From: Acidobacteriaceae bacterium
GTDB taxonomy: Bacteria > Acidobacteriota > Terriglobia > Terriglobales > Acidobacteriaceae
Direction of reading: 5' to 3'
DNA length: 64,000 nt
Assembly: GCA_003132445.1 (NCBI GenBank)
Contig: PKXU01000201.1
Coordinates: 1-64,000, forward strand
Position numbers and translations under genes: made by a program. This document shows positions 2,021-36,693 of this stretch, one piece after another; positions within the stretch are counted from its first letter, which is position 1, and the number at the start of each line of letters is the position of its first letter. Under the pieces are notes generated by a model that was not told the origin of the DNA, ran no database searches, and saw only the letters and a list, made by a program, of their open reading frames with translations.

Positions 2021-4081
2021 ATGAAGATTCGGTGGATTATTTTATTTTTCCCGCTGCTCTCAGTAATTGTGCTATCTCTGGCCGTGCAGCAACATGCCGC
2101 GAAGGCCCAATCGGCCCCAATCGCCGCTTCCGCTCCGCAAACCTCGCAAGCCGCAACCGCGCCGTCTTCAGAAGTGCCAACAATCCCCGACACCACGTTG
2201 GCCATCAATTCCGACAAGCCCATGTCGGAACGTGTCGTGCACTATGAAATCGATGCTAAATATGACGCTGCCACCCACACCGTCGACGCCACCGAAGTCC
2301 TCACCTATCACAACCTGACCGGCCAGGCGCTCGACCACTTCCCTTTCCATCTTTATCAGAATGCGTTTCAGCCTACGTCCACCTGGGTGCGCGAAGCCAA
2401 AATTCAAGGCAGCCGCGACACCGCTTATGACAAGTGGACCGAAAAAGAATATGGCTCGGAACAAATTAAGAATCTCGAAGTAGTCGGCCAGGGCGACCTT
2501 ACGAGTCAGCTGCAATACATCGCGCCCGACGACGGCAATAAAGATGATAAGACCGTCATCGACCTGCGCATGGCCAAACCGATCGCGCCCGGCGCCTACG
2601 TTCAATTCAAGATTGCATTCCAGACGAAGTTTCCCGAAACCCAGGCGCGCTCAGGATGGAAGCGCGACTTCGTCCTCGGAGGACAATGGTTCCCAAAGGT
2701 TGGCGTATGGTGGCACGGAGCCTGGAATTGCCATCAGTACCACGCCACCACCGAATTCTTCGCCGACTTCGGCGTCTACGATGTAAAGCTGACTCTGCCG
2801 CAGAATGAAATAGTCGGCGCCAGCGGCGTGCTGGTCAACGAAATGAATAATCCCGACAACACAAAAACTTACACCTACCACGGCGATGACATTCATGACT
2901 TCGCCTGGACCGCAAGTCCGCGCTACAGAGTCAGAGAAGGCGTCTATCAGGCGCAGATGGGGCCGGTAAAGCTGCGTTTCCTGATGCAGCCCGCGCACTG
3001 GAGCCAGGCCGAACGCCACGAACGAATCATTCGCCAAACGCTCGACCACTTTGAGAAATGGTACGGTCCATATCCCTACAAAACCTTGACCGTGGTCGAT
3101 CCCGAGCCAGACTCAGCGGCCGGCGGCATGGAGTACCCAACCTTTATCACCGGAGAATCGAGCTGGTTCATGCCCGACGGGTTATACCTGCCGGAAATAG
3201 TATTGGAGCATGAATTTGGACATCAATACTGGTACGGCATGGTGGCCACAAACGAATTCGAAGACGCATGGATGGACGAGGGCATCAACAGCTACAGCGA
3301 AGTAAAAGTTCTCGATTCTATTCTCGGCAAGAATACGTCCATCATGAATGTCGCAGGCATTACGATGGGTGAACGCCAAGAACAGCGGCTGGGTTATGTC
3401 AGCGCGGCCGATCGCGATCCCATTGCTCAGAAAGCCTACGACTATTACAGCTTTGGATCGTATGGCGGAATCACCTACGGCAAGACTGCCAGCGTGCTGG
3501 TCACGCTCGAAAGCATTATCGGCGAAGACACAATGGCAAAGGCGATGCGCGCGTACTTCATGAAATACCGTTTCACTCATCCGACAAAAGAAGATTTTCT
3601 AAAAACGATCGAGGAAGTTTCCGGGAAAGATTTGCGCTGGTACTTCAACCAGGCCATTTATGGATCGCAGGTAATGGATTATGAAGTCCTGAAGGTCGAT
3701 TCCTTCCCGGTGAACTGGTACGAAGAAAAGAAAGACAGAAAAAGCGAGAAAAATAAAGACACGGTCTACCAATCCTACGTGTCGCTCGGTCGCAAGGAAG
3801 ATTTCATAATGCCGGTCGAGGTCGAAATCAAGTTCGACAACGGTGAAGAGATCCGCGAGCATTGGGATGGACAAAGCCGCTGGACGAGATTCAGTTACCA
3901 GAAAAAAGCAAAAGTAGTTTCGGCGGAACTCGATCCCGACCATAAAGTGCAGATCGACCGCAACGATTTCAACAACAGTTTCGTGGTCGAGGCCAATCCT
4001 AAGCCCACGCACAAGTTGTCGAACTATTGGCTGTTTGTGACGCAGTGCCTAAGCCAGGCGGTTGCCTGGTGGGCAGTTTAG
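2021..4081 (+). CDS. secreted M1-family metallopeptidase
   Basis: Zinc metallopeptidase of the M1 (gluzincin) clan, 686 residues. HEFGH at residues 397-401 with the third ligand Glu 18 residues later (E420) gives the HExxH-x18-E zinc site, and a GGMEYP motif upstream stands where M1 enzymes have GAMEN. The N-terminus (MKIRWIILFFPLL, then an Ala/Pro-rich stretch) is a signal peptide plus linker, so the enzyme is probably exported. I chose ATG 2021 because a GAGG lies 8 nt upstream and the signal peptide begins there; an in-frame ATG at 1985 would put 12 residues in front of it. It resembles the acidobacterial 'M1 family metallopeptidase' group rather than classical PepN. The second M1 gene in the window (16950) is clearly distinct. 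Confidence 0.9.
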   Translation: MKIRWIILFFPLLSVIVLSLAVQQHAAKAQSAPIAASAPQTSQAATAPSSEVPTIPDTTLAINSDKPMSERVVHYEIDAKYDAATHTVDATEVLTYHNLTGQALDHFPFHLYQNAFQPTSTWVREAKIQGSRDTAYDKWTEKEYGSEQIKNLEVVGQGDLTSQLQYIAPDDGNKDDKTVIDLRMAKPIAPGAYVQFKIAFQTKFPETQARSGWKRDFVLGGQWFPKVGVWWHGAWNCHQYHATTEFFADFGVYDVKLTLPQNEIVGASGVLVNEMNNPDNTKTYTYHGDDIHDFAWTASPRYRVREGVYQAQMGPVKLRFLMQPAHWSQAERHERIIRQTLDHFEKWYGPYPYKTLTVVDPEPDSAAGGMEYPTFITGESSWFMPDGLYLPEIVLEHEFGHQYWYGMVATNEFEDAWMDEGINSYSEVKVLDSILGKNTSIMNVAGITMGERQEQRLGYVSAADRDPIAQKAYDYYSFGSYGGITYGKTASVLVTLESIIGEDTMAKAMRAYFMKYRFTHPTKEDFLKTIEEVSGKDLRWYFNQAIYGSQVMDYEVLKVDSFPVNWYEEKKDRKSEKNKDTVYQSYVSLGRKEDFIMPVEVEIKFDNGEEIREHWDGQSRWTRFSYQKKAKVVSAELDPDHKVQIDRNDFNNSFVVEANPKPTHKLSNYWLFVTQCLSQAVAWWAV

Positions 4082-4154
4082 AACCACACGTTCAGGACTA
4101 GACCGGGGATTTCGCGATGGCGGCCTAACCCTTAATAATCGAGAGGAAAAGTGG

Positions 4155-5135
4155 ATGAGTGAAAAGCGGGTAAATGAGAAGCAGGGTTTGCTGAGCGACG
4201 GCTTGGCAATGGTCGGCCACAACAAGCGTTATATTTTCTGGTTCTGGTTGTTGAATCTTACCCTGGCCGAGTTCGGCACATCTGCCTTTCGCAAGAGTGC
4301 GCACGCAATCCTCGACCACAGCTTCGCCGCTAATCGACTTCTCCATGGCTTCGACCTCTCAGTGATGGTCGGCCTGATTGCCAGGCCTGAGTTTGGGCAG
4401 ACCTCGGCGATGAGCGCTCCCGTGTCCTATTTTGCTTTCCTGTTTTTTCTCGCGACAGCGCTATTTCTTCCGGGAGTATTTCTGGCATACGCTTCGACCT
4501 ACCGCTTGCCCCGTGAAGATTTTTTTCGCGCCTGCGGACGAAATTTATGGCGCTTCATCCGCCTGATGATTGTTGCCGGCATCGTGATGGGAATCGCCGC
4601 AGGCTTGCTCTTCGCCCTCAACGGCGCGCTCGTGAAAAAGGCCGGTGACAGTACAAACGAACTTCTGCCCTTCGAAACGCAAATGGTTGGGCTGACCATA
4701 ATCTTTCTGGTGATGACCATCCTGCGTATCTGGTTCGATCTGGCCGAGGCGGATATTGTTTTAAATAATCAGAATGCTGTGCGCAAATCCATTGCCGCGG
4801 GCTTTCGTCATACGTTCCGCGCGCTGGGCCGCCTGCTCGGCAGCTATGTGGTGACCACGATTGTGGCCGCAGTAATCCTGCTCGCTGGACTTTTGATCTG
4901 GATGAAGTTGATTGCCCCGGAGAGCATCTGGGGCGCGTTCGTAGTCAGCCAACTCACTTTGTTTTTGCTGTTCATCCCGCGCTTCTGGCAGCGTGGCGTC
5001 GCGGTGTCGTACTGGCAACAGCAGATGATGGTTCCTGTGGTCGCAGTTCGCCCTATCGAGCCCCAGCCGGTCACCATGGCCGTTGTTTCCGATGGCGCTC
5101 CCGTGCTTCCGAGTTCGCCTCCCGTCACGTCCTAA
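4155..5135 (+). CDS. multi-pass membrane protein of unknown function
   Basis: Integral membrane protein of 326 residues with about six hydrophobic helices (near residues 30-50, 95-120, 140-165, 185-205, 245-270 and 280-300) and a Pro/Val-rich cytosolic tail. I see no catalytic motif and do not recognise a named family. The start at ATG 4155 follows a purine-rich GAGAGGAAAAG. An upstream in-frame ATG at 4062 overlaps the end of the preceding peptidase gene and has no ribosome site. It lies 73 nt after the M1-type peptidase on the same strand and may be co-transcribed with it. Base composition does not differ visibly from its neighbours. Confidence 0.75.
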   Translation: MSEKRVNEKQGLLSDGLAMVGHNKRYIFWFWLLNLTLAEFGTSAFRKSAHAILDHSFAANRLLHGFDLSVMVGLIARPEFGQTSAMSAPVSYFAFLFFLATALFLPGVFLAYASTYRLPREDFFRACGRNLWRFIRLMIVAGIVMGIAAGLLFALNGALVKKAGDSTNELLPFETQMVGLTIIFLVMTILRIWFDLAEADIVLNNQNAVRKSIAAGFRHTFRALGRLLGSYVVTTIVAAVILLAGLLIWMKLIAPESIWGAFVVSQLTLFLLFIPRFWQRGVAVSYWQQQMMVPVVAVRPIEPQPVTMAVVSDGAPVLPSSPPVTS

Positions 5136-34166: not shown

Positions 34167-35138
34167 ATGAATGACCTGCTCTCCATCATGGCGCGCCATG
34201 GCTACGCTTTAACGTTCACGTTGTTGCTTGCCGAGGCGATTGGACTTCCGTTCCCGGCCGCGATCGCATTGGTTGGGGCCGGAGCGGCCGTTGCCGCTCA
34301 CACGCTTTGGGGGCCGGGCGTTCTTCTTGCCGCCATGGTAGCGCTTGTGCTGGGCGACGTGGCTCAGTTCTGGCTGGGCCGGTACACTGGCTGGGCGCTG
34401 CTGGGATTTCTCTGCCGCCTGTCAATGAACCCAGAGACCTGCATACTCCGTTCCGCTGAATCCTTCTACAAACGCGGCAAGGCAACGCTCGTATTCGCCA
34501 AGTTCATTCCCGGGCTCAACACGATGGCGGCGCCGCTCGCAGGTAGCATGAAGATGCGTTTTGGACAATTCTTGCGTCTGGACTTCGCCGGAGCACTGTT
34601 GTACTCAGTCACTTATTTGATGGTGGGATACGTCTCGCGCGATTTTCTGGCAGCGACCTTGAACGGATTCCACGCCGCGGGACGGGCTATGGAAATCATC
34701 GTTATCGTCGCCCTGCTGGGATATTCCATCTACCGCATCGTGCAGTTCTCCCGCTACAAGAAATATCGCATTATGCCGCGCGTGCAGGTACAGGAACTCG
34801 CTGCGCGCATGGCCTCCGACCAGGCAAACCGGGTGCAGATTGTCGACGTGCGCAGCCACGGTTATTACGACGCAGGATCGGAGCGCATCGCAGGCTCGAT
34901 CCGCATCGAACCCAATAATCTCGATGAAGAAATAAAACATCTCTCCAAAGACAAAGCCATTTATCTCTACTGTACTTGAGCACGCGAAGCGACCAGCGCC
35001 CGGGTGGCGCATCTATTGCAGGAAAAAGGATTCAACACGTTCGTTATCGTCGGCGGCTTGGCCGCGTGGCGCAAGGCCGGCGAACCGCTTGAGTCGGTTC
35101 CGAAAGACGATCTGGTGAAGTTGCCGACGTTCAGTTAG
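34167..35138 (+). CDS. DedA-rhodanese fusion, candidate selenoprotein (in-frame UGA = Sec271)
   Basis: Membrane protein of 323 residues if the in-frame TGA at 34977-34979 is read as selenocysteine. Residues 1-200 are a DedA/SNARE-associated domain (FAKFIPGLNTMAAPLAGSMK, several membrane helices). Residues about 210-315 are a rhodanese domain: VQIVDVRSHGYYDAG, IAGSIRIEPNNL, KAIYLYCT-U-AREATSARVA, then after the TGA an unbroken 52-codon continuation containing VIVGGLAAWRKAGEPLE, the normal C-terminal half of a rhodanese, to TAG at 35136. The UGA falls two residues after the presumed catalytic Cys269, making a C-T-U motif. A SECIS-like hairpin begins 17 nt downstream. Alternative: a nonsense mutation producing a truncated protein. 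The start ATG 34167 fits the DedA N-terminus. Confidence 0.8.
34996..35010 (+). promoter_or_regulatory. SECIS-like hairpin after UGA of DedA-rhodanese gene
   Basis: Perfect 5-bp stem GCGCC / GGCGC with a 5-nt loop CGGGT. The loop starts 22 nt after the UGA and has G in its first two positions, fitting the published bacterial SECIS pattern (loop 3-14 nt, stem of at least 4 bp, G in the first two loop positions, 16-37 nt from UGA). It is inside the continuing rhodanese coding sequence. Confidence 0.55.
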
Positions 35139-35292
35139 GGTTACGGTTCTCTTTGCGAAGGTCGCGACTCACTCACTCGCCGTCGGCTGGCGCGCAACTT
35201 TTCGGCGGGCAAGGGTTAGGAAACGCAAGGGAGTCGCACGTCTCGCGTCTTTCTGTTAAATGTAAGGCCGTTCAAGCGCCTGGAGGATGCCC

Positions 35293-36693
35293 ATGCGCCT
35301 CATCGCCACTTCGCTTTTTCTCATCGCTTTGGCAGTCACATTCAGTAAGGTCACAGCCTCTCCCGCACGTCCCGAAATACCCACCACCATTTACGATCCG
35401 AATCCCTCGCATATTTGGAACCGCCTTTATGCAGCCTTGTTGATCCGTGAAGACCGGCACGGAACTCAGGTCGGCGCGGACTCGCTGGATCCGCCCCTAT
35501 GGCCGGAGACCGAACATTTGCTGGCGGGGTCCTCGCACCAGCAGGCCCTGCGCGTTCTCGACGAATTCCTACGGACGCATGCAGAGAATCTCATTCAAGA
35601 TCCCATCAAGCGTGCCTTGTTGCAGCATGATCTGTGGGCCGTGTTCGACTGGTCGGTCGAACAATTTTCTTCCATAGATCGGCCTCAGTACGCCAAGCCT
35701 CAGTACGGTAAAGAGAAGAAGGAATTGCAAGTCCGGCTCGCGGAAGTGCTCCGGAGACTGGCGCTCACGCCAGAAGCAGTTAAGTCTCTGCCTGACAATT
35801 ATGCTCAGGCGTTGGCCTTAGGTGCATTCGCCAGAGAATATGACCCAGCGAACCCGGAGCGGCCGTTCCTGCCGCCAGACTTGTTTGACCCGCATGGTCC
35901 GTGGGCCGGCATTACACCCAGTCCGGAGTTTGCTGGTCTGGGCGTGGCCAAAATGCACATCTTTAACCTCTCAGGACGCTCCAGCTTCCTGGTTTTCGTG
36001 AAACTGCCCGGCGGACATAAGGCAACGATGGATTACTTCCAGGCTCTGTGGAACTTTCCTCAACCGTGGGTTCAGGAGACAAATTCGGATCAAGCTGCGG
36101 TGAATCCCGCGCTGCCGTCGTTTCCCGCCGGAACCCAGGTCGCGCTGGTACGCCGGATGAACCTGTTTGACAATCAGGGCAACCTGGTTTCTGCGAACAT
36201 CACCGAAAGCGTGCAAATTCGCGTGTATCACACAATTACAACGACTGCCGAACGCTTCTTTAGCGGCACGTTAGCCGACACCATCAAGAACAGCGGACAG
36301 GATTTTTACGAGTTCAAGCTCAGCCGTCCGCTGTTATTTTCCGCGAAGAATGGCGGCCTGCGAGCAGTCGCTCGCGACGAAAGAGAGTTCGCCACTTTTC
36401 AGACCAAAGGCGGAGACCCAATCGAGGGCACTGAGCCTTCCGCCCGTCCGGATTCTATAAACGAAGCTCCTCTCGAGTTACAGCGCTGCGTCTGGTGCCA
36501 TTCCGGTGGAGGAGTGCGCTCGTTGAACAGCCGAGAAGCCCTCCTTCGTCCCAATCGAATGCAGATGGAACCGGGGAACTCCGACTATGCCTCGATCTAC
36601 TGGGGTGACAGCTCGGCCATCGACTGGAAACAGAATCATTACGACTGGGGCTTGCTGAATGGTTACTGGAAAGCGTCCTCCCATCCGCAATAG
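35293..36693 (+). CDS. secreted protein with a CxxCH motif, function unknown
   Basis: A 466-residue exported protein with a signal peptide (MRLIATSLFLIALAVTFS). One CVWCH motif (near residue 398) is a potential haem c attachment site, the only one present. The rest, including TIYDPNPSHIWNRLYAALLIRED near the N-terminus and a Trp-rich end, matches no family I recognise. I start at ATG 35293 because GGAGG is 6 nt upstream; ATG 35287 directly abuts the GGAGG and is unlikely. It may be an extracytoplasmic redox or cytochrome-like protein, but the motif is late in the protein and may be coincidental. Confidence 0.7.
   Translation: MRLIATSLFLIALAVTFSKVTASPARPEIPTTIYDPNPSHIWNRLYAALLIREDRHGTQVGADSLDPPLWPETEHLLAGSSHQQALRVLDEFLRTHAENLIQDPIKRALLQHDLWAVFDWSVEQFSSIDRPQYAKPQYGKEKKELQVRLAEVLRRLALTPEAVKSLPDNYAQALALGAFAREYDPANPERPFLPPDLFDPHGPWAGITPSPEFAGLGVAKMHIFNLSGRSSFLVFVKLPGGHKATMDYFQALWNFPQPWVQETNSDQAAVNPALPSFPAGTQVALVRRMNLFDNQGNLVSANITESVQIRVYHTITTTAERFFSGTLADTIKNSGQDFYEFKLSRPLLFSAKNGGLRAVARDEREFATFQTKGGDPIEGTEPSARPDSINEAPLELQRCVWCHSGGGVRSLNSREALLRPNRMQMEPGNSDYASIYWGDSSAIDWKQNHYDWGLLNGYWKASSHPQ

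Follow-up and report, generated by a model that had tools for sequence, protein, structure and literature searches.

An in-frame UGA codon interrupts a gene for a DedA-rhodanese fusion protein in the genome of a soil bacterium of the family Acidobacteriaceae (assembly GCA_003132445.1). Is this codon a stop signal, or is it read as selenocysteine (Sec)? We addressed this question for a stretch of 64,000 nucleotides (contig PKXU01000201.1, positions 1 to 64,000, forward strand), to which we refer as the window, and for which an earlier note, made from its letters, had proposed a membrane-anchored seleno-rhodanese. Our analysis supports this proposal, and none of the observations that the note had named as speaking against it (a genome lacking Sec machinery, homologues with neither Cys nor Sec at the column, a raised dN/dS past the stop) was made. 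Comparison of the sequences shows that selection at the protein level maintains UGA codon 271, that relatives may have Cys in its place, and that an RNA hairpin located 16 nt behind the codon is conserved along with it; in addition, the lineage of the host possesses the Sec machinery. We consider it highly probable that the codon is decoded as Sec and that the gene encodes a membrane-anchored selenoprotein.

The gene and its predicted product

The reading frame opens with an ATG codon and, in the ORF translation, runs into TGA directly after the residues IYLYCT; 52 sense codons lie between this triplet and the terminal TAG (35136-35138). The frame, the position of the TGA, the number of codons behind it and the length of the product are all as the earlier note had stated them (Table 1). 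When the UGA was read as a sense codon, Pfam recognized a VTT_dom (40.3 bits versus a gathering cut-off of 33.9) and a Rhodanese domain (46.9 bits versus 22.2). The latter match runs across the UGA, and in the earlier note the frame behind this codon had been read as the remainder of a rhodanese domain.

Table 1. Coordinates of the DedA-rhodanese fusion gene and its features in the window
Feature	Position	Strand	Remarks
DedA-rhodanese fusion gene	34167..35138	+	323 residues, counting UGA as Sec
DedA / VTT membrane domain, residues 30-155	34254..34631	+	PF09335; helices in AlphaFold2 model
Rhodanese domain, residues 209-303, across UGA	34791..35075	+	PF00581; Foldseek matches
Cys83 codon	34413..34415	+	same in 63/63 aligned fused proteins
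Cys92 codon	34440..34442	+	same in 63/63 aligned fused proteins
Cys269 codon, first residue of C-x-U motif	34971..34973	+	same in 63/63
In-frame UGA, codon 271, proposed Sec codon	34977..34979	+	UGA/Cys column in relatives
Hairpin GCGCC-CGGGT-GGCGC, proposed bacterial SECIS	34996..35010	+	loop 35001-35005; pairs kept in relatives

An AlphaFold2 model, computed from 63 of the 95 aligned rows available (52 with UGA and all 11 with Cys), reached a mean pLDDT of 80.9 and a pTM of 0.63. In this model, a strand (residues 264-268) stops just ahead of Cys269 and a helix (272-286) starts right past residue 271, and solved rhodanese domains were the best Foldseek matches. Not only Cys83, Cys92 and Cys269 but also the Cys/Sec column at position 271 proved to be invariant across the 63 rows.

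ARAGORN found no tRNA in the window, and at the gathering thresholds of Rfam the window contains one element, a SAM riboswitch (RF00162; 45348-45461, minus strand, 67.2 bits) that lies far from the DedA-rhodanese gene. Downstream of this gene, a 468-residue ORF with a CxxCH motif (35287-36693) has no Pfam match; it occupies the same place in two of 26 loci (L051 and L056).

The UGA codon and the hairpin in relatives

We searched 150 genomes drawn from the family of the host for relatives of the fusion protein. Matches of about 43% identity or higher, which we designate clade A, contained one TGA in 47 of 53 genomes, and reading of 57 loci (L018-L074) placed TGA at codon 271 in 51 of them and Cys in four; L071, whose contig is cut short, and the unrelated L074 were excluded from the Sec/Cys counts. 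Addition of 40 further loci raised the total to 97, and the column of codon 271 was readable in 96 of these: it holds TGA in 84 rows, TGC in nine, TGT in two and, in the unrelated L074, the Ser codon TCT. The expectation of the earlier note that homologues would carry Cys at the UGA position was thus borne out by 11 Cys rows next to 84 UGA rows. The UGA genes, 81 of which are distinct, form two clades, namely clade A, which includes the window protein and has CTU or CSU, and clade B (28-37% identity, mostly CTUPxE). The architecture is common, since the clade-A UGA form is present in 47 of the 150 host-family genomes and the second clade in others. Across the phylum, 69 of 396 genomes gave a match at 1e-40; rows with one TGA occurred in 11 families besides that of the host, and alignment confirmed the column in five of them.

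A true stop, whether it arose by nonsense mutation or sequencing error, marks a pseudogene or ends a functional truncated protein, would accord with the meaning of UGA in the standard code and with the TGA that terminates DUF1569, one of eight neighbouring genes examined. However, we regard this explanation as extremely improbable in view of a UGA column that is common to 84 genes, the most distant of them at about 28% identity, and of a frame that is equally constrained on either side of the codon. Among 25 orthologues with 70% identity or more (two of which, L020 and L054, are identical), the pooled dN/dS amounted to 0.115 for residues 1-200, 0.109 for residues 201-270 and 0.110 for residues 272-310, so that the rise past the stop that the earlier note had named as refuting was not seen. 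When the window gene was compared with L051 only, the values were 0.136 after the UGA and 0.071 and 0.118 before it, each from few changes. The preservation of the hairpin at synonymous sites also argues against a stop.

SelB together with Sec-tRNA-Sec recognizes a hairpin of this kind and inserts Sec at the UGA. The hairpin of the window gene, a five-pair GCGCC-N5-GGCGC stem, is separated from the UGA by a 16-nt spacer and occupies bases 19-33 when the U of UGA is counted as 0. Its stem is complete in 84 of 84 UGA rows and in none of the 11 Cys rows. Two UGA genes (L070 and L123) carry a double change that turns the second pair, C-G, into U-A; in L116 and in three rows with the loop CGTGC, the amino acids of the loop are altered and the stem is kept; and all four loop types have a G at loop position 2. 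Synonymous variability, computed from the 53 distinct clade-A UGA rows, falls to the minimum of the gene at codons 277-281 (0.067; the 277 five-codon windows have a median of 0.556), and these codons do vary in the Cys rows. A phylum-wide set of 27 loci, which overlaps partially with the rows above through five repeated genes, had all five pairs in 10 of 11 UGA rows and in one of 16 Cys rows; the exceptions are the UGA gene L177, which lacks the outer pair and retains four, and the Cys gene L178, which still has five standard pairs.

Taken by itself, the window sequence is less telling. Of 2000 synonymous recodings, 113 also yielded a five-pair stem at the hairpin site and 1183 were equally or more stable in folding; in addition, when 45 nt of the window were folded, the structure predicted to have the lowest energy differed from the hairpin. 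The single-sequence hairpin is weak evidence, and we dropped the folding of the single sequence as evidence. The hairpin after the UGA that the earlier note had pointed out is hence present and kept across relatives far beyond chance, but weak in the window alone.

Outside the hairpin, we observed a further synonymous fixation: the codon that precedes the UGA (34974-34976 in the window) is ACT in 51 of the 53 distinct clade-A UGA genes.

Selenocysteine machinery and its co-occurrence with UGA

The host assembly comprises 203 contigs with a completeness of 87.48%. It encodes SelA (541.4 bits versus a cut-off of 267.9) and SelB (362.5 bits versus 242.25), and contains no tRNA-Sec above the Rfam cut-off. 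Six matches below this cut-off were rejected, as ARAGORN identified them as tRNA-Leu (two), tRNA-Ser (two), tRNA-Cys and tRNA-His. In a genus mate (G143), a tRNA-SeC(tca) gene adjoins a peroxiredoxin-like gene, as judged by eye, and the host contig that is syntenic with this stretch (C24) breaks off inside the tRNA-Sec match, of which it holds the first 20 bases (L153 1-20, minus strand, beside the peroxiredoxin-like gene). All 20 bases are identical to the tRNA-Sec of G143 and of two other genus mates (G082 and G123), and 19 of the 20 to that of G006. SelD was not found in the 87.48%-complete host assembly, in which the selD match is ThiL and was rejected; within the genus set, SelD is present in 38 of 41 genomes and in 18 of 18 high-quality ones. 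Of the Sec machinery on which the earlier note had made its reading depend, the host genome thus yielded SelA, SelB and a 20-base match to the start of tRNA-Sec, but not SelD.

SelD itself possesses an in-frame UGA (KAAG-UGA-ASK) in five of eight loci read, and Cys in three; the UGA-containing selD loci of genus mates are L141, L143, L144, L145 and L148.

Could the UGA be a sense codon for Cys or another ordinary residue, either through a selC-like tRNA-Cys or through reassignment of UGA? Some bacteria possess a tRNA-Cys with a UCA anticodon, and excerpts of the paper describing it give U73 as the mark of the selC-like tRNA-Cys (PMC7609411); relatives of the window gene, moreover, do carry Cys at the column. 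We nevertheless consider such decoding very improbable. ARAGORN and Rfam type the tRNAs of the genus as tRNA-SeC, the base before CCA in these tRNAs is G, not U, and a Cys route would need neither selA, which is present in every clade-A UGA genome, nor selD, present in nearly all genomes of the genus set. Because seven neighbouring genes, SelA and SelB are all free of internal TGA codons, full reassignment of UGA is unlikely.

Decoding as Sec, the reading that we prefer, can be viewed against the distribution of the Sec machinery. All 47 clade-A UGA genomes contain selA (E 1e-50 or better) and none of the six clade-A Cys genomes does, a contrast that is confounded by kinship (Fisher p 4e-8, without kinship correction). 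At a limit of at least 60 bits, which was picked after the list had been seen, tRNA-Sec was detected in 39 of the 47 UGA genomes and in none of the six Cys genomes; at the 47-bit cut-off of Rfam, 98 of the 150 genomes had a match, including two of the six Cys-form genomes. Of the clade-B genomes, 29 of the 30 whose match has a UGA and 10 of the 59 whose match is uninterrupted possess selA; 28 of the 30 UGA genomes were checked at the column (all except G025 and G091), and the lists leave out G081, which has a stop elsewhere and Cys at the column, and G002, which has a TAA. In one clade-B UGA genome (G120), no hit to selA reached E 1e-50, and one Cys-form genome (G072) possesses selA.

Four changes between Sec and Cys are needed on the tree. 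The Cys genes L034 and L038 are nested in the UGA clade and come from genomes without selA, which suggests that they reverted to Cys. A kinship-corrected test has only three independent pairs to draw on, none of them in the opposite direction, and for this reason cannot reach significance.

The two Cys-form genomes with a tRNA-Sec match above the cut-off of Rfam are G064 and G140; both matches score about 51 bits, and neither genome gave a selA hit.

Known relatives and possible function

The window protein has its best NCBIfam match in NF041203 (rhodanese_LYCAU, 'rhodanese-related (seleno)protein'; 79.9 bits, under the cut-off of 115), a model that all 63 aligned members hit with E values of up to 0.001. 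This family has Cys-x-Sec at the same place of the rhodanese domain, but its model covers 126 positions and the rhodanese domain only, whereas the window protein is fused to DedA and has the motif LYCTU. A table in PMC13188914 lists five forms of rhodanese selenoproteins, in which NF041203 is form 3 (CxU) and TsoB is form 5 (UxxxxU, with two Sec). TsoB (NF045694, rhodanese/DsbD fusion-like selenoprotein) is, like the window protein as we read it, a rhodanese selenoprotein that carries a further domain, yet it is named for a DsbD-like part rather than DedA, and the window fusion has one UGA; weak TsoB matches were obtained for eight of the 63 aligned members and none for the window protein at E 0.001.

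Fusions of the Cys type are also on record. A protein of Xanthomonas sacchari annotated as 'DedA family protein/thiosulfate sulfurtransferase GlpE' agrees with the window protein in its two domains and their order, reads C-x-C where the window gene has the UGA, and contains the Cys pair of the DedA domain; it differs by Cys in place of the UGA and shares about 33% identity with the window protein over 306 residues. PA1209 of Pseudomonas aeruginosa is named as a DedA-rhodanese fusion in an excerpt of PMC12893004. In the literature that we searched, which was made up of main texts with few subscription papers among them and was judged by title, start of the abstract and term counts, we found no description of a Sec-containing DedA-rhodanese fusion, in line with the earlier note, whose author knew of none. 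The term DedA has no occurrence in the main texts of PMC13188914, PMC9312934, PMC2398784, PMC1794560 and PMC12013277. Hence, the parts are known, C-x-U rhodanese selenoproteins on the one hand and Cys-type DedA-rhodanese fusions on the other, and their combination was not found described. Selenoproteins would thereby gain a membrane (DedA/VTT) architecture. Since standard gene calling takes UGA as a stop, it would truncate such genes within the rhodanese domain.

What might the fusion protein do? The DedA domain shares the VTT fold, a Glu and one basic residue with the COG0586 DedA/UptA flippases (E. coli YghB and YqjA), and it has been noted that rhodanese fusions occur in this subfamily; the same excerpts call the link between rhodanese and undecaprenyl phosphate unclear (PMC10127716). 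An undecaprenyl-phosphate flippase regulated by the seleno-rhodanese would fit these fusions, a weak UptA match (43.1 bits versus a cut-off of 300) and a polyprenyl synthetase gene that precedes the fusion gene, with the same orientation, in 19 of 26 loci (L048-L073), although this synthetase may instead serve quinone synthesis. Four residues are reported as key in YghB (Glu39, Asp51, Arg130 and Arg136), with Asp51 and Arg136 listed as essential (PMC10127716). These two correspond in our alignment to Ala32 and Asn118 of the window protein, and none of the 63 rows has Asp or Glu at position 32 or Arg at position 118. The other two are maintained, Glu39 as Glu23 (Glu in 55 of 63 rows) and Arg130 as the still basic Lys112 (Lys in 62 rows, Arg in one). 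With half of the flippase residue set replaced, a flippase for undecaprenyl phosphate appears improbable. The window protein also differs from the COG0586 flippases by an extra Cys pair and an added rhodanese domain.

A membrane-tethered sulfurtransferase or persulfide reductase, for which the DedA part would be a mere anchor, is an explanation that we take seriously without thinking it probable. Both Foldseek and HMMER matched rhodanese domains, among them those of CoA-persulfide reductase and of persulfide dioxygenase fusions. However, the strong conservation of the DedA part (dN/dS as given above) and its own invariant Cys pair exceed the needs of an anchor. In an eight-row alignment, both Cys residues were found in four of four fused proteins (from the window, X. 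sacchari, L124 and L096), and equivalents of Cys83 and Cys92 in none of the four E. coli K-12 DedA proteins (YghB, YqjA, DedA and YabI); in our data, this pair is confined to DedA domains that are fused to rhodanese.

The outline that we favour, tentatively, gives both domains a part. The rhodanese domain would be soluble and face the cytosol, and Cys83, Cys92, Cys269 and residue 271 would act together: Sec271 and Cys269 would form a C-x-U selenosulfide or persulfide centre, this centre and the Cys83/Cys92 pair would exchange electrons or sulfane sulfur, and the exchange would control or drive a DedA carrier in which two of the four flipping residues are lost. We derive this outline from the invariant residues and the loss of flippase residues, and from these only. 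Its more specific form, a selenium-gated membrane carrier, seems rather unlikely as yet; here, the four residues would constitute a relay of electrons or sulfane sulfur from the rhodanese to the DedA domain, which would move another lipid, or else a sulfur or selenium species, and not undecaprenyl phosphate. If true, it would place a DedA/VTT transporter that is widespread in Acidobacteriota under the redox control of selenocysteine. The natural Sec/Cys pairs, the four invariant Cys/Sec positions and the replaced flippase residues make the question of how rhodanese and undecaprenyl phosphate are related a testable one.

A search of the host genome with the pattern TGA-N16-GCGCC-N5-GGCGC returned four matches, compared to one in a reversed control. 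Two of the four are UGA rhodaneses, the window gene and a gene on contig C158, and this second case adds to the evidence for Sec; in the matches on C41 and C81, the second base of the loop is not G. C158 carries two small rhodanese genes in tandem (3612-3953 and 4043-4363, corresponding to 1501-1842 and 1932-2252 on the minus strand of L135), each with one in-frame UGA (YCTUPDEGSS and CTSLHUHASE). The product of the first scored 107 bits against NF041203 (cut-off 115). Its GCGCC-N5-GGCGC stem is identical to that of the window gene, as is the distance from the UGA, and the second gene has a GCCGCC/GGCGGC stem.
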